Positions 48,593 to 61,709 of a stretch of DNA of 64,000 nt are shown here, in pieces. Made by a program: the position numbers and the translations under genes. Under the pieces are notes generated by a model. The model made no database searches. It saw only the letters and a list, made by a program, of their open reading frames with translations, and was not told where the DNA came from. Each line of letters opens with the position of its first letter. The first letter of the stretch is position 1. The stretch spans positions 434,001 to 498,000 of the forward strand of contig NZ_LXEI01000001.1 of NCBI RefSeq assembly GCF_001642835.1, given 5' to 3'. Origin of the DNA: Pseudotamlana agarivorans. Its GTDB lineage: Bacteria > Bacteroidota > Bacteroidia > Flavobacteriales > Flavobacteriaceae.

Positions 48593-49486
48593 TTATCGTA
48601 TAAATTTATCTATTACGTAAACAATTTGAATAAGTGTTATGTAAGACACACTCACTAACATTAATTGTCTTGCAGCTTTTTCGGTCATTTCTCTAAACAA
48701 TCGTACCGCATAATGCAGCATGAATAGTCCGCACAGAAATACAATAACTGCTGCTACAATCGAAAGTTTTAATTCACCTGTAAAACCAAAAACTGGTATG
48801 ATAGACACAATGATGGTCCAAATGGTATACATGATAACCTGCACTGCAGTTCCGCGATCTTGTTTTCCAGTAGGCAACATAAAGAAGCCTCCCTTTTTAT
48901 AATCTTCAAATAAAAACCAACCTATAGCCCAGAAATGTGGGAATTGCCAAAAAAACTGTAAAGCGAATAAAGTTCCTGGCTCAATACCAAAATTATCGGT
49001 AGCAGCTACCCAACCTAACATAAAAGGAATAGCTCCAGGAATGGCTCCTACAAATACCGAAATAGGTGTTTTGGTTTTTAACGGCGTGTAAACACAGGTG
49101 TAAAGAAAAATAGAAATCGCACCAAACATAGCGGTTTGCTTGTTAATGGTATACAGAATAATGATGCCGAGTACTGTAAAAATAGAAGCAATAACAAAAG
49201 CGGTATTAACAGACATACGTCCAGCTGGAATTGGTCTGTTTTTTGTGCGGTCCATTAAGGCATCTAAATCTTTTTCTATAATCTGATTGAAAGCATTGGA
49301 AGCACCAACCATGAAGTACCCTCCAAAGGCTAATAATACGAGCACTTTAATATCAATAACATCGACACCTAACAAATAGCCTGCAAGCGATGAAAACACG
49401 ACGCTTAAAGACAAGCGCATCTTGGTGATCTCTTTAAAATCTGAAATAACAGTAGGTTCTTGTATGGCTGATTTTGAACGACTCAA
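48593..49486 (-). CDS. ctaB: Protoheme IX farnesyltransferase (heme O synthase)
   Basis: Adds a farnesyl group to heme B to give heme O for the oxidase. The 297-residue UbiA-family membrane protein has eight to nine helices and the first prenyltransferase motif in residues 64-90 (NAFNQIIEKDLDALMDRT followed by RPIPAGR). A second motif with YTPLKTKTP is at about 128-136. It is first in the oxidase operon, downstream of a near-consensus promoter. Confidence 0.95.
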   Translation of the reverse strand: MSRSKSAIQEPTVISDFKEITKMRLSLSVVFSSLAGYLLGVDVIDIKVLVLLAFGGYFMVGASNAFNQIIEKDLDALMDRTKNRPIPAGRMSVNTAFVIASIFTVLGIIILYTINKQTAMFGAISIFLYTCVYTPLKTKTPISVFVGAIPGAIPFMLGWVAATDNFGIEPGTLFALQFFWQFPHFWAIGWFLFEDYKKGGFFMLPTGKQDRGTAVQVIMYTIWTIIVSIIPVFGFTGELKLSIVAAVIVFLCGLFMLHYAVRLFREMTEKAARQLMLVSVSYITLIQIVYVIDKFIR

Positions 49487-49595: not shown

Positions 49596-51695
49596 TTAAA
49601 AATCGAAATACCAGTTAAATAAATCGGTACGCACACCAACAGTAAACCACACAGTATTATTTTTATACGTCGTAGATGTTGTAGCATCAGGATCGAAATC
49701 TCTAAAGGTCACATCTCCAAAAATCTTCATATTTGAAGCCACATTTAACAAATAACCTGCTTGTAAATTACCATTAAAGATATTGGTTCTAATACCCTGC
49801 CCTACTTCAACACCAGTATCATAAGGACGATCATAATAGTCTCTGTAGATATCCCCACCATAACTGTAATTATCAACATCATCATCAAAATCGAAACCAC
49901 GAACTCCAAAAATAAGTTTAGCATTAGCAAACCATCTTTTATAATGATAGCGTCCAATAACAATAGCTTCACTAAAATTGGAATTCCATAAATGCGCCAT
50001 TGACTGGTTACTATTGGCATAGTTAAGCACAATAGTATTATGGGAGTATGTATACGGTCTTACGCGATTGTACTCGAATTGGAGCAATAAATTATCAACT
50101 TTAAAGGCATCAAAATATTTTATACCCAATTGGTATCCGTATTTATTCTTATAACTTTTTTCACCTCCTGTCATGTCTGCAAGTGAAAATTCATCCAAAA
50201 TTAGCTGTCCATATAAGTACATCTTATCATTCCACTTATATTTAGCCGTAGCTCCCATGAGCGCATTACCTGCTCCCTGACCCGTTTCAAACTCTATAGC
50301 CCTATAAAAGATAATCGGATTCAAGTAATTCACATCGAAACCTCTATCATTGGAATCATCCCATACTACAGATTCAAAGAAACCCAGATTTAAACGTTTC
50401 GTTACATTCCAACTTAAAAAATGATTGCCAATATATTTTCTTTTATAGGCTTTATCTTCAAGAACTTCGTCACGAACATCCATAAGCCACATCCAAGTAT
50501 TGGTATATTTCATTTTCCAAAAAGTGGTGTTAATTTTGAAGAAGGGATACGGGGTTGAAACATCACTTAGAACTAAAGATCTATAACCATCTCCAATAAA
50601 GGATTTCCCATGTCCGAATTGAAAATTAAAATATTTTGAAGGTGTATAAGATAAATAAGCCTCGGCAACCGGATAATCGTATGCATCTGTTCTGTAGCGC
50701 TTAGCAATACCTCGACCAGGTATGAGGGCTGGGTCTGGCCCTGCAGCTTTCAGTGTTTCTGCATAACGATTAAAATAATCGGCAAAACGACCTTGGCTTT
50801 CTAGAAACGAAGTGAAAAAACTAAATTTATCGCCAAAACCACCTTGAATTACAATACCTCTGGTATTGTTATAAGTATAACTAAAGTCGGCATCCTGATC
50901 TTTACCCATTTGAATATCAAAAACAGGGTCGACTGTAAACCAATAATTATCGGTTTGTAACTGAACAAAGTTCTCGTTCCAAAGTTTACGCCCTACCCAG
51001 GTCTTTCTATCTTGAAGTAGTTTTTCATTTTCGGCATTAAAATCGTAATATTTTGAAACTTCTGAGTAGATAAATGGTTTGGCACTGGTATGGCTGTTCG
51101 TCCCTACGAGATTCATCTCTTTATCGAACTTTGCATAGTCACTATGTACAAAAGGAATGTTTAACTGACTTTTATAATTTGGTTTATTGAAGGCACGCGT
51201 TTGGGCTGTTACACTATCGAATTCACGCTTAGCTTGCTCCTCTAATGCCGTTAATTTGTTTGCTTTAGCTAAGTCTTGAGAAGACATTTTTTGATTAACT
51301 AATGGAATTTTAATAGGAAAGGAATACTGCTTAAAAGTATTTCGAGAATTATAGGTAGCTGGTGTAATAGTAGGAAAAGTAGAAAAAACACGAATGGCTT
51401 CCTTTTTAAGCTCATCATACATCGCATCGATATAAATCACTCGAAAAGTTCCTGTGGTATCCACCTCAAAAAGCACGACTACTTCACCTTTATAATTTTC
51501 TTTATAAACCCGCTCTGGCACCTGAAACTCATTATATATATGATTAAAAACGGATTGATCAAAACACTGTTGAAGCGAATCTATAGATACCGATTTACAT
51601 TCTGGAAAAACAGGTGGTTTTTCTTTTAAAATAGAGCGTTGTGCATGCCCCTTAACCTGTATAATAATTAGGATAAGTACAATGAATTGCTTCAT
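49596..51695 (-). CDS. RemB-like gliding protein: TonB-C-like domain plus outer-membrane barrel
   Basis: A 699-residue exported protein (signal MKQFIVLILIIIQVKGHAQ). Residues about 28-132 look like a TonB C-terminal domain: PVFPECK...C (Cys 33 and 44), GEVVVLFEVDTTGTFRVIYI, KKEAIRVFSTFPTITPA, PIKIPL. The remaining ~560 residues are a beta-barrel with alternating aromatic strands, ending in the Phe of FDF. The size and layout match gliding protein RemB as I remember it; I give no gene symbol because that is memory only. It lies before two tonB genes whose C-domains share the same Cys pair. Confidence 0.7.
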   Translation of the reverse strand: MKQFIVLILIIIQVKGHAQRSILKEKPPVFPECKSVSIDSLQQCFDQSVFNHIYNEFQVPERVYKENYKGEVVVLFEVDTTGTFRVIYIDAMYDELKKEAIRVFSTFPTITPATYNSRNTFKQYSFPIKIPLVNQKMSSQDLAKANKLTALEEQAKREFDSVTAQTRAFNKPNYKSQLNIPFVHSDYAKFDKEMNLVGTNSHTSAKPFIYSEVSKYYDFNAENEKLLQDRKTWVGRKLWNENFVQLQTDNYWFTVDPVFDIQMGKDQDADFSYTYNNTRGIVIQGGFGDKFSFFTSFLESQGRFADYFNRYAETLKAAGPDPALIPGRGIAKRYRTDAYDYPVAEAYLSYTPSKYFNFQFGHGKSFIGDGYRSLVLSDVSTPYPFFKINTTFWKMKYTNTWMWLMDVRDEVLEDKAYKRKYIGNHFLSWNVTKRLNLGFFESVVWDDSNDRGFDVNYLNPIIFYRAIEFETGQGAGNALMGATAKYKWNDKMYLYGQLILDEFSLADMTGGEKSYKNKYGYQLGIKYFDAFKVDNLLLQFEYNRVRPYTYSHNTIVLNYANSNQSMAHLWNSNFSEAIVIGRYHYKRWFANAKLIFGVRGFDFDDDVDNYSYGGDIYRDYYDRPYDTGVEVGQGIRTNIFNGNLQAGYLLNVASNMKIFGDVTFRDFDPDATTSTTYKNNTVWFTVGVRTDLFNWYFDF

Positions 51696-51837
51696 GTTTG
51701 TTTGGATAGAATGGTTTTAGAGCGGAAAGATACTATATTTTTTATATTCTTAATTTAAAGTACTCTATATTGATACTGTTGATTGAAAAAAAGAAGTCGA
51801 TTTGCCATTTATTAAATGAGCCGCTTGAAGGATAGAA

Positions 51838-51921
51838 CTTGCCGAAACATATTTTAATAATAAATATTAAGGTATTTCGACAAGCTCCATTTAACACATA
51901 CTACTTCGCTTTTAAGACAGC
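51838..51921. repeat. Degenerate inverted repeat, second copy of the 36-kb element
   Basis: In the 240-base gap, CTTGCCGAAACATATTTTAATA pairs imperfectly with TATTAAGGTATTTCGACAAG (51838-51884). Further on, 51909-51921 reads CTTTTAAGACAGC, whose reverse complement GCTGTCTTAAAAG is identical over 13 bases to the left arm of the element at 36172. No terminating T-run is present. Confidence 0.5.
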
Positions 51922-51935
51922 ATTCTTTTAACTCA

Positions 51936-52724
51936 TTATTGTACTTGAAAAACAATAGGCAAGGTATATACCACACCAACATGCTTGTCATGCTGTCTAC
52001 CGGGTGTCATTTCTGGAATATAGTTAATAACACGTTTGGCCTCTCGTTCAAGCTCTGGGTTAGGAGCGCGCGTTTTAACGTTGGTAACATGTCCTGTTTT
52101 ATCTATAGTAAACTGCACTTGAATACGCTGACGTCCTGTTAAACCATAATTGGATGCTATATCGCTACCTTGAAACTTCTTTTGAATCAGTTGAGTTATT
52201 TTATCGGACATGCATTTTTTCCTAGCTTCATTCCCATTGACTTTTTCACAGCCAGGATAAATTGGAGCTTCTTGAATAGCTCTAAAAGTAACAGGTTCCT
52301 CATCGGTAGGTTTCTCTACTAAGGGCACAAGCGTTTCAGGGGTAACAGGTTCGGTTGGTGTTTCCGTTTGGACATCCTCAAATAAAATATCTTCCGGCTC
52401 ATCATTTTTTATAACTTCAAAAGACAAAGGTTCCTTTGGGGCCCTTTTTTTGATGCGTTCCATAGTTTCTGGAACTTTTGTTTTAATAAGCGGCACATCC
52501 ACCCAAGCTAATTCCTCAATTGGAGGTAAATCGTCATCAACTTTTGGAATGGTCGTTTTAAAATTTAATTCCAATAAACCAAAAGCAACCAACAAGCATA
52601 AGATGATACCTACTTGGAAATAGTTGGTGGAGTTTTTCTGTAAATTCACATCATGCTTTTGTGACTTTCTCATGATTTTACCATCATATCGTATAATATC
52701 CTTGTTTTTACTTTGAATCTTCAT
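51936..52724 (-). CDS. TonB-family energy transducer
   Basis: A 262-residue protein with a cytosolic basic N-terminus, one membrane helix (about 36-53), a Pro/Glu/Thr-rich periplasmic spacer (60-150), and a TonB C-domain (about 153-262) with PIYPGCE...C (Cys 159 and 171), QVQFTIDKTGHVTNVKTRAP and YTLPIVFQVQ. TonB proteins pass proton-motive force to outer-membrane receptors. It is a paralogue of the next gene upstream. The cysteine pair could form a disulphide. Confidence 0.9.
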   Translation of the reverse strand: MKIQSKNKDIIRYDGKIMRKSQKHDVNLQKNSTNYFQVGIILCLLVAFGLLELNFKTTIPKVDDDLPPIEELAWVDVPLIKTKVPETMERIKKRAPKEPLSFEVIKNDEPEDILFEDVQTETPTEPVTPETLVPLVEKPTDEEPVTFRAIQEAPIYPGCEKVNGNEARKKCMSDKITQLIQKKFQGSDIASNYGLTGRQRIQVQFTIDKTGHVTNVKTRAPNPELEREAKRVINYIPEMTPGRQHDKHVGVVYTLPIVFQVQ

Positions 52725-52774
52725 AATATTATCAAATTAAATGTTAATAATTTCTTAAAGACACAAGAAGCATA

Positions 52775-52817
52775 CCAAAAAAAGAAATCCCGTTACAAAA
52801 GGATTGTAACGGGATTT
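52775..52817 (-). terminator. Rho-independent terminator of the upstream tonB
   Basis: On the minus strand a 14-bp perfect stem (AAATCCCGTTACAA/TTGTAACGGGATTT, 52817-52785) with a 5-base loop is followed by C and seven T. It separates the two tonB genes into two transcripts. Confidence 0.92.
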
Positions 52818-52863
52818 TGATTTATTATCTAGATTACATTATGTAACCTTGTATTTGAAAACC

Positions 52864-53583
52864 TTAATCTTGAACTTGGAAGATAATTGGTAAAGAATAT
52901 GGTACATTTACCGGCTTACCACGTTGTTTTCCAGGTTGCATTTTAGGTAATAAGTTAATTACACGAGCAGCTTCCTTTTCTAAACCAGGGTGTGGTGCTC
53001 TTGCTCTTACTCCTGTAATAGAACCTGTTTTATCAATTTTAAAGATCACGTTAATACGCTGTCTTCCCGATAAACCTAACTCACTAGCTAACTCTGTATT
53101 AAACTTTTTATTTACAAACTGAGAAATCTTTTTAGACATACAATCTCTTTTCTCGTTGTTGCTTCCTTTTTCACAACCAGGGAAAATTGGCACATTTTCA
53201 ATTACTGAAAACGGTACATCTACATCTTCCTCTACCTCTTCTACTTCTACTTCTTCAACCTCTACAATTTCAGTTTCTTGATCAACCTCTGTAGATTCGA
53301 TTACAGTTTCTTCAACCTCTACCTCATCTTCAACGATCTCGATAACTTCTGGAGCTGCAGGTGGCGGTGGTGGCGGTGGTGGTGTTTGAATTTGTTCTGT
53401 TAATGGAATATCTTCTTCTAATTCCTCATCCATATTCACCATTCCAATATCTATATCTTCCTTATCGTAAGTTTTATAGTTTATTGCATAATTTGTAAGA
53501 AATAGCATTAGTGCTAGGCCAACAGCAAAGTATAATGAACTGTTACGTCCTACATTTGCTTTGGGATTTTTTTTAACTTCCAT
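52864..53583 (-). CDS. TonB-family energy transducer
   Basis: A 239-residue TonB: one membrane helix (17-35), a run of eight Pro (68-75), a highly acidic spacer of EVE/VEE repeats (80-122) and a TonB C-domain (130-239) with PIFPGCE...C (Cys 137 and 148), NVIFKIDKTGSITGVRARAP and SLPIIFQVQD. It is closely related in the C-domain to the 51936 gene. Its acidic spacer, unlike the Pro/Lys spacer of classical TonB, is the odd part. Confidence 0.93.
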   Translation of the reverse strand: MEVKKNPKANVGRNSSLYFAVGLALMLFLTNYAINYKTYDKEDIDIGMVNMDEELEEDIPLTEQIQTPPPPPPPPAAPEVIEIVEDEVEVEETVIESTEVDQETEIVEVEEVEVEEVEEDVDVPFSVIENVPIFPGCEKGSNNEKRDCMSKKISQFVNKKFNTELASELGLSGRQRINVIFKIDKTGSITGVRARAPHPGLEKEAARVINLLPKMQPGKQRGKPVNVPYSLPIIFQVQD

Positions 53584-53654: not shown

Positions 53655-54023
53655 TTAACGCAGGACTTTGTTTTTAACTATTAGGATTAAAGATGCTAAG
53701 AGGGCGCCAAGGGTATTTGCCACCATATCGTAAACATCTAACGACCTAGAAACCGTCAATGTACCTTGTAAAACCTCAATAATTATACCAAAAACTACAG
53801 CTAAAATTAGTGCGTAATATACAGCGGGTTTATTGGCCATCTTAAAATTAAGTAAAAAGGTTCCAAACCATAAAATAGTTAAGAGACCATAGGCCAGAAA
53901 ATGAAAAATCTTATCACCAAAAGAAACCCCAATATCTGGAACATTCTTAAGCGTGATAAGACAAACCGTTGCTAATAAAACAGTATAGCTTACTGCAGCG
54001 ATAGGTACAATTTTATTAAGCAC
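53655..54023 (-). CDS. VanZ-like family protein
   Basis: A 122-residue membrane protein with four helices and the VanZ-like features: [16 protein letters not shown] near residue 37 and the [29 protein letters not shown] segment at about 82-110. Role unknown; VanZ itself gives low teicoplanin resistance, but most chromosomal homologues have no known link to that. Its start overlaps the gcvH stop by 8 bases. Confidence 0.9.
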
Positions 54024-54396
54024 CTATAAGGCTTTTATATTCTTCAGACGAAAGCAAACCATCAGCTTGAGATAAATCAGAGCATTTCACTTTTATCATC
54101 CATCCATCACCGTAAGGATCTGAATTTACCTTTTCAGGTTCATCTTCTAACGCATCGTTAAACTCAATAATTTCACCAGCTAGTGGCAAAAATAAATCAG
54201 ACACGGTTTTAACAGCTTCAACTGTTCCGAAAACCTCATCGGCATCTAATGTTTCATCTAGAGTTTCAACCTCCACATAAACGATATCTCCTAATTCACT
54301 TTGTGCAAAATCTGTAACGCCTATCGTAGCGATATCGCCTTCTAATCTAACCCATTCGTGATCTTTAGTGTACTTTAATTCTGAAGGAATATTCAT
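54016..54396 (-). CDS. gcvH: Glycine cleavage system H protein
   Basis: Lipoylated carrier that shuttles the methylamine group between P, T and L proteins of glycine cleavage. The 126-residue product has the lipoyl-attachment Lys 63 in [11 protein letters not shown] and the full family fold ([21 protein letters not shown]). The start follows a near-perfect promoter, and it is coupled to vanZ. The other gcv genes are not in the window. Confidence 0.96.
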
Positions 54397-54467: not shown

Positions 54468-57400
54468 TTAATTCCCAAAATTATAACGAATAGTTAATCC
54501 TGACCTTACAGTTGTTTGTGGAAATGCGGTAGAAATGGCATAATCTGAAAACGTATAATCGAAATAAAAGATTCCCGTTAGGTTTTTACTAAAGGCATAG
54601 TCGGCTGTATATTTTACACCCCAAATGGTTTGCCCTGAAGTAATTTGATTATTATCTAAATCTAAATACCTAACAATCGTTTTATTATCTCTTACCGAAA
54701 CATCGGCTTTCATATTTAAATCACTAATAATACGCTTCTGAGGCCCCGCTAATTTAGATCGGATGCGTAAATCTTTAATACGATATCCCAATCCTAATAT
54801 GTATTCATTACCATGAACTTCGGTCATTAAATTATTATCAAAACTCAGGGACAGCAATCGGTCTTTTTTAATTTCGGCTAATATTTTAACCGAGTTTTTC
54901 ATTTCCATGTCAATGCGCATAAGCGGACTAAACATTTCGGTTAAATTGATATTACTATACAGTGTTTCGTTTTTAAAATTCCCTGATTGATCTAAAGCCT
55001 CGGCTGGTTGATTCGCGTAAGGTGTACCAGGAATTGGTTTTTCATTAGCTGCAGGGTCTAGATTCAAGTTTAAATTCGTTGAAAACTGATTGATGGTATA
55101 CGTGGAACGGTAACCATGCGTTAACGAGAATCGTTTAAAGTTCTTTTTAAACCACCCAAACTTCATGAACCCCGTATATTTCAAATCCCAGTTTGGGATT
55201 GGCACGTTTCTAAAAGTTTCAGTAGTGATGTTTTCGGCATCTTTTCCTTGGTAGGCTGCTAAAAATGATGGCAATAATACCTGTTGGTTGTTCTTACCAA
55301 ATCCTAAAGGATAGCCTTCTGCATCTCTAGCATAATTGGTTGTACCGTAAAACTCTTCCGCCAAACGATCGGCTATTTTTATTCTATTCGATCTAAATTC
55401 TGTAAAGGCTTCTGAAGTCGTTTCATCACTAGCCTGAAAGGCTGTTTTTATTAATAATGTTGAAATATTATAGTTTCCAAAGGTATTTGGAGTTAAGGAA
55501 TAATACTCTTCATTTTCTATTCTATAATTTTCGGAGTAATTTTCATAGTATGATCGGTTGCCCAGAATATCAATTTTTAAATCTCTTACTGGTTGTACTG
55601 ATGCCGAAATATCTAACTGCTTGGTTTCAGTAGTGGTATACTGCTGATTAAATTCTGGAAACAGTGTTAACCACCCATTTCTAGCTGCCCTGTCACGTAC
55701 ATCACTTTGTCCTCCCAAAACAAATCCTAATGTTGGCTTCGTAGTCCCTAGGAAACCAGGCGTGTGAACAAAACCTGGTAAAAAGGTTCCGTTATTTTCA
55801 GAATAATTAATTTGAATTCTTTTAACACTTGTTAAAATATCGATAGCAGCATTTAATGCTTTTGTTCCGGCTTGCCCTTTTGTTTTAGGCTGCGAATTTT
55901 CTTCCATCCCTTCCGGAGTAGCTGCAGGTCGTCCTGGCACACCTCGTGACCTTGCACGACTAACAGGCTTTTTGGTTAAACCAATATATTTATATAATCG
56001 ATTCATATCCATAGACGAGTTGATGGTATGAACGTTTGAATTCTGAATCGTATTTCCTAAGTCGTAAACCGCACCAGTAGATTCCAGGGTCACTTCTTGA
56101 TACAAATCGGAACTTTTTTGCCATTGGAAGCTACCAGTGTATTGGTAGGTAAGATCTAAAAAGCTAAAGGTTGGTATTTTATTAATGGGCACTTTATAGG
56201 TAAGCCCTAAATTCTGCATCTGTCGGTTAGGGTCACCAAAATCTAGCATGCCATTCCATATATCTAGGGTTTCATCCTGCTCACCAGCTTCAAAATCGTC
56301 ATTCTTAAAATAGTTTCGTACAATATTACTATTAGTGGCCGTATAATTTAACTGTAAGGATTTGGTTAAATTATAATTTATAGTGTATTGAAAGTCGAAC
56401 ATATAGTTTCTTCGATACAATTCTTCAATGCCGATATTGTCACCCGTAAGATCTACTTCTCTAAATTTTTGTCGGTTATATTGTCGATTTAAATCGGAGT
56501 TAACCGTAAAACTTGCTGGCAACAGGTTTAAGTTAAAATCCTTTAAAATTTTCCAATACTTACCTGTAAACAACGAATCGTTCTTTTGAAAAGGCTCGAT
56601 AACCAGAGGCTCAAAATTATGGGCATAATTAGCCCCTAAACGTAAAGTTTTATTAACAGAGTTCTCAATTTCAAAATCCCGATGTTCAATTTTATTATAA
56701 GAATAATTAAGCGTGAAATTTTCCACATCATAAAAACGAGGTTTCGCATCGGTAGTACGCACCTTTCTGACGCCTATAAAATTAATACTGTGACGCATGG
56801 TGTAATCTTCCGACTGTTCTTTAATACGTTCCCTTTCGGCAGCATCATTAGCAGCATCCAAACGTGATTCTAACGTTAAATCTTTATATAACTGATCATA
56901 TTTAGGTGTAATAAGAGCTTCACCTCGACCATAATTAAAAGGCAATTGTACGCCCCATTTTTTAGGTAATAGCTGCCCCACATTCACATTGGTAACCACA
57001 TCATATTGCTGAACATCTTCAAGACTACGTTGGCTTGGCCCTTGTTCTAAGGACCCAAAACCAGAAGTGCTTTGACGCCCTGTCGCGCTTATATTTGCAA
57101 AATCTGCAATGTTAGAATCCATGCTTACCACTGCCGCCCAACCGCCATGATTGTCTAGGTCTGACATGCGCAATTCGTTAAACCAAATTTCTCCACATAC
57201 ATCAGTGCCACTAGCATTCTTAACCCCTACCATTAGTGTTCGAATATCTCCAAAGTTAGGATTTCCTTTAATTGCCACACGATGCTGCCCTAAAACATAG
57301 CCCGTAAATGGATCGCTTACAGGTAATACATCATCTCCAATGACATCATAATATGTTAAATCGGCATTGCCGCTAGAGATGCTTTCGGCTTTAATATCTC

Positions 57401-60400
57401 CTAACACTTCAATAGGCAAGTTTATTTCATTCACGTCTGGCCATAACTCGGACCCTTTGACTTGTAACGGAATTTCAATTTGATAGTAATTCTCGGTAAG
57501 GTCATTTCCCATACGAATGAATCCTACTAAGTCTTTATCATCTAAGGTTCCAACAGAAGCATCTTGATCTTCGGCATGAAAGAACATGCGAATGCGTTTA
57601 TATTGACGCATATCTAAATCGATATTTTTGTATACACCTCTTGAATCTTCGGCTTCCAAACCACAAACCTCAACCACTAAAGATTGTTCGTTTTGACGAA
57701 TAACAGTGTTGTTATTATACAATTGTTCTGGAACAATGCCTGGTGGACTTTCATAACGCCCTTCGTTCTCTAGAGTACCTATAACCCCAACCGAAAACTC
57801 GGTATTAGGATCGATAGGGTCTGGGTCATTTTCATCTAAAGGCAAGGTATAACGTCGCCAATCGCTTCGCACTAAATCGAGTGTCCCAAAACGGAAAACC
57901 GTTGGCTCGGTAAACTCTTTTAAATAAATTCTTGAAAAACGTACCGATCTTAAATCTGAAATATTTCCAACAGATTTAGCATGTGTACCTTCAACAGGAA
58001 CTCTAAACTGATACCATCTTACATTTACAGACTGACCGTTTGGTAATTGACGTGGTCGTTCCTTATAATCTCTTAAAAACTGCTTTAAAGGATTACTGTC
58101 TGGAATGTTCTCAAAGTCAGCTTCGGTTGTTGGTAAATTTTGCCTGTTTAATTCCAGCTCATACTCGTAATAACTATCTATGGTATTCATGGTGTTATCA
58201 CGATTAATATCTTCCACATCTGGTTGGGTGTTTGCACCACGGTCTGTGTTAGAAAATCCATCAGGGGTATTCCCTTCTACCCCGTTATACTTTTTATATC
58301 TATCGAAAATATTACCATCGGTATTTAAAAAATATACATAATTATCATTAGAAGGGTCGTCGCCAAACTGTGCTCCAAATTCCATAATTTCTTCAGCATC
58401 ACTATAACCATCGTACCCCACATCTTGGTTAATACGCTCCTCACCTGTACTATCAAAAGCATATACTAAAGATTGGTTTTGTGGTGTTACCGTTCCCCAG
58501 TCGGTAGGCTGTAAAAAAGTAACATCCCCATCTTTTGGTAACCCATTCTCATAGAGCTTCTTACCATCCTTAATAATATCTTCTGAGATATTTCCTAAGT
58601 TAAAAACCAGCTTACCTCCAGGGTTATTAGGATTATCTTGAAAGGGATCCTGTACCCAAAAATCAATATACTCTACATTTTGTTGTTCAAAATCTGTTGA
58701 AGTAATTTGTCTCGTGATTCCGGCCCAACTGTCCTGCGGATTATTTATCACGCCACTAGCAGCATTGGGATCGAAGTTATAAGGGCCGCGTTCGTTAGGA
58801 TAATAAGCTAAATCTAAAGTAAATAACACGGAATTCTGACCCTGAACTAAATCTCTATCTGGGAATAATTCGTTAATAAATACACGACTGGTATACAATC
58901 CAGAAATATCATCATCGGTCATACCATCTGGACGTTGACTACTGTAAAAAACAGGGTCGATAGAATACCAGTTTAACATGGCACGTTGATATCCATTTTG
59001 GATACCATTATCATCTTGATTTGGATTACTTGGAATATTTAAATCCAAAGGCCTACTAGACAAAACCCACGACAGTTGCGATTTTAAATCAATACTGTTT
59101 TGAGAACCTTCAAAGTCGTCTATATATGAGGTCGCTTCTCCGTTCAAATCGGTACCTTTTGGAGCACCTGGAGAAAGATAAGCGAATTCCCCTCTAAGAG
59201 AAACGTTCGATTCTACATCGGTATCGATATTTGGTAGCTTATTAACTAAACGCGTTAAGAATGGTACTTTAGTAGCGTAATTTCCATTAACACCAAAAAT
59301 AGAGTTGTTTATTGATTCTGTGCCGTAGTTTGCTTTTTGTGTTATAGGACGCTCATTAAGATTTAAAAACGTACCACCTAAAACAAAATTATCGTTAAAC
59401 TGATGTTGGACGTTAAATCCTGTAAAACGCCTTGTTTGTTGTCCGAAAACGGCATTATTCTCTGTAGAAACTTCAATAGGCGTGTTGGAAGCTTTTAAGG
59501 CTTCATCTAAAATTTGCACCCTTCCCAATTGGTAATTTACAGTATAATCAATGCCTTCAACTAAAACACGACCTCCTGCTGTAACGCGTACAGAACCACG
59601 AGGTACATTAAACGAGCCTATTGGAATACCATCGCCACCTGTGGATTTATAACGTCCTTGTAATTTAAACTTATTTTTTTCTACGTAATCTAAAGCCTTT
59701 GTTTTAGTTTCTGAATAAAGCTTATCAAATACATACTTCTTTTGATCGTCATTATAGGAGGTATCATCCTCATAATTTCCACCCCCAAGCACATCAAATA
59801 AATACTCTCCAAAAGGCTCGGCACTGGTAAACACAATTTTACCATTTACGGGAATGACTGTGATACCTGGAACAAAATCGAAAAAACCATCACCACGACT
59901 TTGTGGATCGTTATTATAGTTTAATTTATCTAAATTGAAAACCCTTAATAAAGGTATATTTTGAATCAAGTCCTCCTGATTGGTATTAGTTCCAATCGGA
60001 TTTCCATTAATATCGTTAGCAAATTCACTACCAACAGGTTTTATAAAGTTTAAAGGTGTCGATTCATTGTAAAAGATATTCAGTTTAAAATCCTCAACAC
60101 TTAGATTATAAGCCCCAGTGTCGTAGATATTTTTCATCATTAAATCCCAAACTGGCTGATTTACATTGGTCACACTACTTTTTAACATTTTAAGCAAAAG
60201 AGCCGAGTTAACCACATTGGTAACGTTTCCATTGTTATCGGTATCCACATCGGTAGCATCTACCCCATCATTAGCAAATTCTCCAACCTGATACACCTTC
60301 CCTGAAATGGTATATTGAAAAGCTACAGCTAAAACTTCATCGTTACTTAACCGTTGGTTTAACGAAATATATCCTAATTCTGTATTTAAAGTATATTCTT

Positions 60401-61709
60401 GACCCTCAATTAATTTTCTTGCATTTTCTAGTTTAGCATAATCAGGCCCTTCACTAACATTTGGCACTAAAATACCAGATTGCACAGTCGCAATATCCCT
60501 TACAGCAGGAGTTAGTTGTGATCCAGGACCACCAATATTGGTCGGGTCAAAATCATTATTTCCATTATCTGGAAAGGCCCCAGGCCCAACGTTTACGAAA
60601 TCATTTGGAGGTGTTTGCAAACCAATTCTATCTGATTCTCCTAAATCTTGCAAAGCCACAACGTTTCGTACATTTTCAGTACGATTACTTCGGTTGGTTA
60701 CCCAAACTTCCAAACGTTTAATTTGTAAACCTTTGTTATTTATAAACGGGTAGTTGGATAAAGCAGCGTCGTAAGTTTCTCTAAAATATTGTGCTAAGAA
60801 AAAGTGCCTGTTTTCATCATAATCCCTAATAAAAACATCAAACTCTTCGAGGGTTCCACCACCTTGAGCCACAACGGTATTGGATTGTGATTTTTGTTCA
60901 GAAAAAATCCCTGTAATGGTGGTTTTACCAAATTGAAGTTGCGCCTTAACACCAAATAAACTTTGTGCTCCAGTAATTAAGGAACTATTCAATGGCATGC
61001 TCACATTACCAACTTCTATTTTCTGAATAATATCGTCTTCAGTTGGTGTGTATTCTAATTTTATTAAATTCTGAAAATCGAATGTAGATTGTGTATCGTA
61101 ATTCGTATTAATTTGAAGACGTTCTCCCACTTTACCTGTCAAACTCAAACTTATTCGCTGATCGAAATCAAAGGTTAAGTTACTACGATTTCTAGGTGAA
61201 AATGATGGGTTGTCTTGTTTTGAATACAATATTCCCAGATCCATTTCAACAGAACCTTGAGGAATAATTTCTATAGTATTTCCTCCAAAAATGCTTTCAA
61301 AAAGTCCTGAGTTGATATAAAACTCAGGCAGTAAGTTTCTACGACCTTCTTCAGAGCCTTCTTTTTTACCATCGAAAGCATCAATTTTTTCTTTATAATA
61401 TGCTCTTAGATTTTCTCTCGCGACTAACTCATAATACTCCTTTGGTGTTAAGATTACCGGAAAACGAATATCATACTCCCCAATTTTTTCGGTGTAAATA
61501 TATCGGTTAGAAACAGGATCGTAAGTGTATTTAGATACTACACTTGACGGCATTGGCTCTTTTATATTTCCAACATGATACCCAGGTTCTGGCGGAATGG
61601 AATCTTGAGGTGTTCCTTGCCCCCATACATCTGTAAAACAGCATAGGGCAAAAAGCAATAAAAAACACGGTTTAATTGATTTATAAAATTGAAGGTTAGT
61701 TATTTTCAA
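54468..61709 (-). CDS. sprA: Type IX secretion translocon protein SprA
   Basis: Forms the giant 36-strand outer-membrane pore of the type IX secretion system, needed for gliding and adhesin export. The 2413-residue product fits the family's very large size: a signal peptide (about 1-31), then QDSIPPEPGYHVGNIKEP, several repeated SprA_N-like blocks (EYYELVARENLRAYYKEK and others) and a beta-strand-rich body, ending in the barrel strand TVRSGLTIRYNFGN. The gene starts 6 bases after ruvA, an order found across Flavobacteriaceae. No terminator is seen; the gcvH promoter follows the stop. Confidence 0.95.
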   Translation of the reverse strand: MKITNLQFYKSIKPCFLLLFALCCFTDVWGQGTPQDSIPPEPGYHVGNIKEPMPSSVVSKYTYDPVSNRYIYTEKIGEYDIRFPVILTPKEYYELVARENLRAYYKEKIDAFDGKKEGSEEGRRNLLPEFYINSGLFESIFGGNTIEIIPQGSVEMDLGILYSKQDNPSFSPRNRSNLTFDFDQRISLSLTGKVGERLQINTNYDTQSTFDFQNLIKLEYTPTEDDIIQKIEVGNVSMPLNSSLITGAQSLFGVKAQLQFGKTTITGIFSEQKSQSNTVVAQGGGTLEEFDVFIRDYDENRHFFLAQYFRETYDAALSNYPFINNKGLQIKRLEVWVTNRSNRTENVRNVVALQDLGESDRIGLQTPPNDFVNVGPGAFPDNGNNDFDPTNIGGPGSQLTPAVRDIATVQSGILVPNVSEGPDYAKLENARKLIEGQEYTLNTELGYISLNQRLSNDEVLAVAFQYTISGKVYQVGEFANDGVDATDVDTDNNGNVTNVVNSALLLKMLKSSVTNVNQPVWDLMMKNIYDTGAYNLSVEDFKLNIFYNESTPLNFIKPVGSEFANDINGNPIGTNTNQEDLIQNIPLLRVFNLDKLNYNNDPQSRGDGFFDFVPGITVIPVNGKIVFTSAEPFGEYLFDVLGGGNYEDDTSYNDDQKKYVFDKLYSETKTKALDYVEKNKFKLQGRYKSTGGDGIPIGSFNVPRGSVRVTAGGRVLVEGIDYTVNYQLGRVQILDEALKASNTPIEVSTENNAVFGQQTRRFTGFNVQHQFNDNFVLGGTFLNLNERPITQKANYGTESINNSIFGVNGNYATKVPFLTRLVNKLPNIDTDVESNVSLRGEFAYLSPGAPKGTDLNGEATSYIDDFEGSQNSIDLKSQLSWVLSSRPLDLNIPSNPNQDDNGIQNGYQRAMLNWYSIDPVFYSSQRPDGMTDDDISGLYTSRVFINELFPDRDLVQGQNSVLFTLDLAYYPNERGPYNFDPNAASGVINNPQDSWAGITRQITSTDFEQQNVEYIDFWVQDPFQDNPNNPGGKLVFNLGNISEDIIKDGKKLYENGLPKDGDVTFLQPTDWGTVTPQNQSLVYAFDSTGEERINQDVGYDGYSDAEEIMEFGAQFGDDPSNDNYVYFLNTDGNIFDRYKKYNGVEGNTPDGFSNTDRGANTQPDVEDINRDNTMNTIDSYYEYELELNRQNLPTTEADFENIPDSNPLKQFLRDYKERPRQLPNGQSVNVRWYQFRVPVEGTHAKSVGNISDLRSVRFSRIYLKEFTEPTVFRFGTLDLVRSDWRRYTLPLDENDPDPIDPNTEFSVGVIGTLENEGRYESPPGIVPEQLYNNNTVIRQNEQSLVVEVCGLEAEDSRGVYKNIDLDMRQYKRIRMFFHAEDQDASVGTLDDKDLVGFIRMGNDLTENYYQIEIPLQVKGSELWPDVNEINLPIEVLGDIKAESISSGNADLTYYDVIGDDVLPVSDPFTGYVLGQHRVAIKGNPNFGDIRTLMVGVKNASGTDVCGEIWFNELRMSDLDNHGGWAAVVSMDSNIADFANISATGRQSTSGFGSLEQGPSQRSLEDVQQYDVVTNVNVGQLLPKKWGVQLPFNYGRGEALITPKYDQLYKDLTLESRLDAANDAAERERIKEQSEDYTMRHSINFIGVRKVRTTDAKPRFYDVENFTLNYSYNKIEHRDFEIENSVNKTLRLGANYAHNFEPLVIEPFQKNDSLFTGKYWKILKDFNLNLLPASFTVNSDLNRQYNRQKFREVDLTGDNIGIEELYRRNYMFDFQYTINYNLTKSLQLNYTATNSNIVRNYFKNDDFEAGEQDETLDIWNGMLDFGDPNRQMQNLGLTYKVPINKIPTFSFLDLTYQYTGSFQWQKSSDLYQEVTLESTGAVYDLGNTIQNSNVHTINSSMDMNRLYKYIGLTKKPVSRARSRGVPGRPAATPEGMEENSQPKTKGQAGTKALNAAIDILTSVKRIQINYSENNGTFLPGFVHTPGFLGTTKPTLGFVLGGQSDVRDRAARNGWLTLFPEFNQQYTTTETKQLDISASVQPVRDLKIDILGNRSYYENYSENYRIENEEYYSLTPNTFGNYNISTLLIKTAFQASDETTSEAFTEFRSNRIKIADRLAEEFYGTTNYARDAEGYPLGFGKNNQQVLLPSFLAAYQGKDAENITTETFRNVPIPNWDLKYTGFMKFGWFKKNFKRFSLTHGYRSTYTINQFSTNLNLNLDPAANEKPIPGTPYANQPAEALDQSGNFKNETLYSNINLTEMFSPLMRIDMEMKNSVKILAEIKKDRLLSLSFDNNLMTEVHGNEYILGLGYRIKDLRIRSKLAGPQKRIISDLNMKADVSVRDNKTIVRYLDLDNNQITSGQTIWGVKYTADYAFSKNLTGIFYFDYTFSDYAISTAFPQTTVRSGLTIRYNFGN

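Follow-up and report, generated by a model that had tools for sequence, protein, structure and literature searches.

A predicted TonB-like domain ahead of a predicted Wzi-type barrel in a RemB-like protein of Pseudotamlana agarivorans

The fused protein and the neighbouring TonBs

Here we describe a gene of Pseudotamlana agarivorans (Flavobacteriaceae) coding for a RemB-like protein in which a TonB C-terminal domain, recognised by sequence and predicted fold, stands ahead of an outer-membrane barrel predicted to be of the Wzi type. The gene lies in a window of 64,000 nucleotides (contig NZ_LXEI01000001.1, positions 434,001 to 498,000), in whose own numbering all coordinates are given. Three open reading frames (ORFs) of its minus strand are the main subject: remB (699 residues; 49596..51695), tonB2 (262 residues; 51936..52724) and tonB1 (239 residues; 52864..53583). 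In the direction of transcription the order is sprA, gcvH, vanZ, tonB1, tonB2, remB and a UbiA-family gene, and the intergenic gaps upstream of tonB1, tonB2 and remB measure 71, 139 and 240 bases, respectively. The initial annotation, whose three reading frames and cysteine motif we recover exactly, had placed both TonB genes downstream of remB; transcription from the minus strand puts them upstream of it.

RemB opens with a putative signal peptide (residues 1-19, ending in GHAQ; 51639..51695, minus strand) that was read from the sequence by eye and corresponds to a helix at residues 2-17 of the model; its [ASG]Q end aligns across orthologues with and without the TonB-like domain. That domain follows (residues 24-132; 51300..51626, minus strand), then a helical linker and plug, and finally the Wzi-like part (residues 176-699; 49599..51170, minus strand), which comprises periplasmic helices and 18 strands of at least 8 residues in the model. 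Both neighbouring TonBs comprise a transmembrane segment, a spacer (Pro/Glu-rich in TonB1) and a TonB_C domain (PF03544; 2.5e-7 in TonB2, 1.2e-9 in TonB1). When the three proteins were compared, neither the strong transmembrane segment nor the Pro/acid-rich spacer of the TonBs was found in RemB. The nearest named relatives of RemB belong to Tamlana, a genus of Flavobacteriaceae (86% identity), and a scan of named genomes recovered two Tamlana loci only.

By sequence and predicted fold, residues 24-132 of RemB are a TonB C-terminal domain, as the initial annotation had proposed. With hmmscan, PF03544 aligns to residues 60-128 (E 9e-4), its score of 20.1 bits falling short of the 24.6-bit cut-off; in a whole-genome search with the same family the domain reaches 24.6 bits and is flagged over the cut-off. 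Within the proteins of the same genome, residues 24-131 match three TonBs, the best of which (on contig C5, over residues 24-130) gives 2.7e-10 at 30% identity. Furthermore, PF03544 is found at E<=0.01 in 34 rows of a 63-row RemB alignment in which 47 rows hold the domain (best 2e-7). The domain was also folded and searched alone, because the barrel fills the structure-match lists of the full model. The resulting AlphaFold2 model, based on an alignment of 53 N-domains (out of 58) that was free of TonB sequences, has a predicted local distance difference test score (pLDDT) of 92.4 and a predicted template modelling score of 0.84. The first 15 Foldseek matches in the PDB are all TonB or FusB chains (best E 1.1e-3, probability 1.00). 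VIA-align superposes the model on TonB in the FoxA complex (6i97_D) with Z 8.6 and a root-mean-square deviation (rmsd) of 2.3 over 87 residues, and TolA domain III comes next (Z 7.9, rmsd 5.0). Pro28, Cys33, Cys44, Gly82 and Phe104 are invariant in the 58 domain-bearing orthologues.

The motif PxxPxC is present in all three proteins, as PVFPEC, PIYPGC and PIFPGC, and the cysteines occupy positions 33/44 in RemB, 159/171 in TonB2 and 137/148 in TonB1, with spacings of 11, 12 and 11. Cys33 (codon 51597..51599, minus strand) and Cys44 (codon 51564..51566, minus strand) are the sole cysteines of the window's RemB, and the pair occurs at spacing 11 in all 57 remB loci of the family as well as in the window protein (58/58), which bears out the invariance on which the initial annotation had staked its case. 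The pair also extends well beyond RemB: out of 90 related TonB C-domains, 85 have both cysteines, one has a single cysteine and four have neither, the last four being rows whose matched part starts past the cysteine region. These TonBs were gathered with a profile whose seeds were RemB domains together with TonB1 and TonB2 of the window; the sources were sprA loci and a part of the TonB_C hits, and the sample is thus biased towards the RemB/TonB1/TonB2 subfamily. Judging from these sequences, the pair is a trait of the TonB subfamily, and its sharing by all three window proteins is not special. Since it is kept in 85 of the 90 TonBs despite a loop of variable length between the cysteines, the pattern fits an intramolecular structural staple, in which the two residues would form a disulfide. 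A special bond among RemB, TonB1 and TonB2 through the cysteines was considered and set aside, given the generality of the pair in the sampled related TonBs.

The barrel and its relation to Wzi

The full-length model of RemB, derived from 63 sequences (pLDDT 86.6), shows a helical stretch followed by the 18 long strands. Its first Foldseek match is Escherichia coli Wzi (2ynk), on which VIA-align superposes 374 residues over model positions 176-691 with Z 24.7 and rmsd 3.5; the runner-up is AlgE, with Z 18.7. Wzi, the lectin of the E. coli K30 capsule (PF14052), has been described as an outer-membrane protein of 18 strands that has a helical bundle in the periplasm and binds the capsular polymer (PMC3791409). 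In both proteins the barrel is preceded by periplasmic helices, and Wzi is the best structural match by far. The predicted architecture is that of an 18-strand Wzi-type barrel with a periplasmic helical plug.

Homology to Wzi is further supported by intermediates. When 10 of 20 retrieved distant homologues were scanned with PF14052, seven matched, five of them over the cut-off. One of these proteins (locus L195, genome G377) bridges the two families: it matches the window's barrel at 3e-81 (4e-80 in a separate search) and passes the PF14052 cut-off at 4.1e-9. On these sequence links, RemB and Wzi would be homologous barrels. RemB differs from Wzi in its additional N-terminal TonB-like domain and in its locus, that of sprA, and its sugar binding is a prediction. 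Other models were less informative: the NCBIfam scan of RemB and its relatives gave no useful model, and a phmmer search of the PDB sequences with the whole protein returned nothing.

TonB-dependent transporters, which are likewise outer-membrane barrels tied to the Ton domain family, consist of a 22-strand barrel with a plug (PMC9022066), whereas RemB has 18 long strands and itself bears the TonB-like domain. The transporter assignment was rejected, as the profile scan gave no match to a plug family and the model no 22-strand architecture.

Many relatives of RemB lie near polysaccharide genes. Across 31 loci encoding the barrel without the domain, three neighbour families recur, in 17, 16 and 15 loci. 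At one locus, L102, domains were named for 10 of the 18 ORFs listed, the neighbours in the other loci being grouped by similarity; in L102, the family present in 17 loci is Polysacc_synt_2 and the other two are the exosortase XrtF and an exosortase-F-associated membrane protein, and sugar aminotransferases, a sugar transferase and hexapeptide transferases are found upstream. It was also observed that barrel-only relatives adjoin XrtF and the associated membrane protein at L102:10431-11460 and like loci. From this neighbourhood, the barrel may be tied to an exosortase system. In two distant Wzi-like barrels, at L194 and L242, the signal peptide is followed by a proline-rich segment that may be a further periplasmic extension.

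Distribution of the fused form and its locus

The order-wide search covered 296 genomes, with at most three candidates scored per genome, so that a remote copy could escape it. In the window's family (73 genomes), 56 genomes encode the full protein, the window's own genome included, and in 17 no barrel was found; in six of these 17, a barrel-only query was likewise unmatched. In other families, at least 53 genomes have the barrel only, with alignments that begin at residue 173 or later, and in 25 aligned barrel-only proteins the signal peptide leads straight into the barrel part. A profile search for the TonB-like domain in 56 barrel-only proteins (these 25, 28 others and three from the phylum set) found it in none, the best E being 1.7. 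At the level of the phylum sample, a barrel homologue is present at E<=0.001 in 128 of 296 genomes. Among the sequences searched, then, no family but the window's shows the TonB-like domain; its 58 orthologues all have both the domain and the cysteine pair.

A tree was built from 26 of 52 RemB domains and 90 TonBs; it relies on few columns and calls for a warning about long branches. The RemB domains form one clade (support 100/99) on a long stem branch (1.69). This clade lies outside a 49-row clade (99/99) holding the window's TonB1 and TonB2, and two further TonBs, also long-branched, join it at 86/90. The simplest account of the sequences is a single gain of the domain within the window's family, with which the tree, in gathering the RemB domains into one clade, is consistent. 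That a nearby tonB was recently fused to remB is unsupported by the tree, the RemB clade being separate from that of TonB1 and TonB2.

The genomic context was compared in the 57 remB loci of the family (55 genomes plus the two Tamlana). In 53 of them sprA, gcvH and vanZ occur within the stretch, and ctaB is likewise found in 53. In the window, sprA, the upstream gene of the locus, encodes the SprA/Sov translocon of the type IX secretion system (T9SS; 54468..61709; TIGR04189, 2735 bits), and is followed by gcvH (54016..54396; PF01597) and the gene of a VanZ-like protein (53655..54023; PF04892), both syntenic; after remB comes the UbiA-family gene (48593..49486; PF01040), which we take to be ctaB. 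All four are on the minus strand.

The TonB genes are less constant. Within 4.5 kilobases upstream of remB, we count none, one, two or three tonB genes in 29, 11, 16 and 1 loci, respectively; locus L064, where the TonB is masked by a long reading frame, was counted as tonB-bearing, and at some loci (e.g., L072, L092, L094) there is intervening sequence between tonB and remB. One or more tonB genes thus stand at this distance from remB in 28 of the 57 loci. All 29 loci without an upstream tonB belong to one genus, g2, and in 10 of 11 g2 loci inspected a deoC-like ORF precedes remB; Pfam identifies it as DeoC in L050 and, weakly and under the cut-off, in L066. As a side observation, the position between vanZ and remB that the tonB pair holds elsewhere is taken in g2 by the DeoC-like gene (L050, L054, L057 and others). 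The g2 genomes L072 and L077 retain two tonBs upstream together with remB, and L072 also has the deoC-like ORF. A second adjacent tonB is seemingly commoner where remB is present; kinship was not considered in this count, which is given no weight.

As regards gliding, remB is Fjoh_1657 and sprA Fjoh_1653 in Flavobacterium johnsoniae, where RemB is filed under adhesin-like proteins (PMC4910214), and RemB and SprA are mentioned together beside a genomic island (PMC5714932). The offset of four numbers agrees with the g2 order sprA-gcvH-vanZ-deoC-remB. The likeness to F. johnsoniae considered here is one of locus position: by its place relative to sprA, the window gene fits the gliding gene remB. 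The excerpts of PMC9601211 and PMC12611786 contain nothing bearing on RemB. The possible link to gliding suggested by the initial annotation is borne out in part, by the sprA locus and by a named gliding gene at a fitting position, while 17 of the 73 family genomes, all those in which no remB was found, have SprA. In 13 of these 17, ctaB lies downstream without an intervening remB.

Possible roles of the fused protein

We propose that RemB is a Wzi-like barrel anchoring surface polysaccharide, with a passive periplasmic docking domain of the TonB C-terminal type, a reading to which we give about an even chance. The barrel would bind or anchor surface polysaccharide. The domain, which would have been added in the window's family between the signal peptide and the plug helices of the barrel, would constitute a disulfide-stapled alpha/beta docking module holding a partner peptide or protein. 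Its short tether, with only about 45 residues to the Wzi-like part, would place it at the inner face of the outer membrane, and the partner would most likely belong to the T9SS/gliding apparatus sharing the locus. The domain would act passively, and not as a force transducer: with a signal-peptide-like start, a domain beginning at about residue 24 and neither anchor nor spacer, RemB alone could not transmit force from the inner membrane. On these grounds the self-energising barrel envisaged by the initial annotation is abandoned. If true, this proposal would establish a connection between surface polysaccharide and the T9SS/gliding locus and would offer a new idea of the role of the poorly understood RemB, listed as adhesin-like (PMC4910214) and appearing here as a predicted Wzi-type polysaccharide barrel with a TonB-like domain of a single family. 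The searched literature, whose coverage leaves the original RemB studies outside, holds in its excerpts no statement of a TonB-like domain in RemB or of its relation to Wzi.

Several observations weigh against this proposal. PF14052 matches neither the window's RemB nor any of the 63 alignment members, and 3 of the 10 scanned distant relatives are also unmatched; the link to Wzi therefore depends on the fold and on intermediate homologues. Moreover, a predicted Wzi-like fold by itself does not prove sugar binding, remB is not beside the polysaccharide neighbour family in the window's family, and the most frequent of these neighbours is absent from 14 of the 31 barrel-only loci, some on short contigs. 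As for the domain, Foldseek gives zero matches in the PDB at E<=0.001, and its profile retrieves TonB from the PDB sequences weakly (E 0.44 and 0.53), below unrelated proteins. It also departs from TonB near the last strand: Pro131 is kept in 57 of 58 orthologues (a Pro at the end of this strand appears in 51 of the 52 rows of the RemB/TonB comparison), and a Tyr stands in 47 of 52 RemB domains where the TonBs show Gln in 84 of 90. These near-invariant changes may mean an altered peptide-binding edge and would, at the level of sequence, point to a partner that is not an ordinary TonB box.

The alternatives differ in what the domain would be doing. It could pair with the C-domain of the inner-membrane TonBs and recruit ExbBD-TonB for a proton-driven pull on the helical plug. 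The domain is homologous to TonB C-domains, one to three tonB genes accompany remB in 28 of the 57 loci, and dimers of TonB C-domains have been reported; yet the physiological role of the dimer is described in the same source as "not well-established" (PMC9022066), and the RemB domains form a separate clade. Together with the 29 domain-bearing loci of g2 that have no such tonB, this renders Ton coupling unlikely, and argues in addition against the docking of a specific trio put forward by the initial annotation. A partnerless relic, retained solely for folding or barrel biogenesis, would agree with the long stem branch and with the several conserved positions at which the domain differs from TonB. 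Nevertheless, none of the 58 orthologues has lost it, five of its residues are invariant, and the barrel-only relatives manage without it, so we regard this explanation as rather unlikely. The domain could also bind the cell wall and so fix the barrel in place. For dimers of TonB C-domains, peptidoglycan binding has been put forward, in a source that words it as a possibility (PMC9022066); a tether of this kind appears improbable to us.

The cysteines could also serve another end. In F. johnsoniae, the twin-Cys outer-membrane barrels SprF/PorG bond Cys343 of GldK (PMC12635249), and RemB might similarly form a disulfide with GldK of the moving track, by thiol exchange, and be dragged along the cell. 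The likeness consists in a barrel of the outer membrane whose Cys pair, invariant in RemB, lies in the periplasm, in a bacterium whose genome encodes GldJ and GldK. However, the pair of RemB is C-x10-C within a folded domain, not CxC in a periplasmic C-terminal tail, it is common to 85 of the 90 sampled TonBs, and the main text of PMC12635249 mentions neither RemB nor TonB, all of which makes such an anchor very improbable. A broader idea draws on both forms of coupling. RemB would count as the third element of the outer membrane that is coupled to a force in gliding bacteria, a Wzi-type barrel gripping capsule or slime and clutched to the proton-driven motor by its TonB-like domain, either through Ton strand pairing or through a disulfide to the GldK track, thus moving polysaccharide or holding it against the moving adhesins; we consider it distinctly unlikely. 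Separately, two weak GldK-like matches were observed in the same genome (G000:C17:65-349 and G000:C24:62-349; E 5e-11 and 2e-9), in open frames of 363 residues, each located at the start of a contig.

Finally, a terminator-like hairpin whose 14-15 pairs precede a run of T is located between tonB1 and tonB2 (52784..52818; strand not assigned). The scan of the region yielded five such sites where 3.1 are expected from shuffles, a result that is weak in itself, and a promoter scan of the same region gave sites no more numerous than in shuffles. From the position of the hairpin and its T run, tonB2 and remB may be transcribed as a unit of their own, apart from sprA-tonB1.

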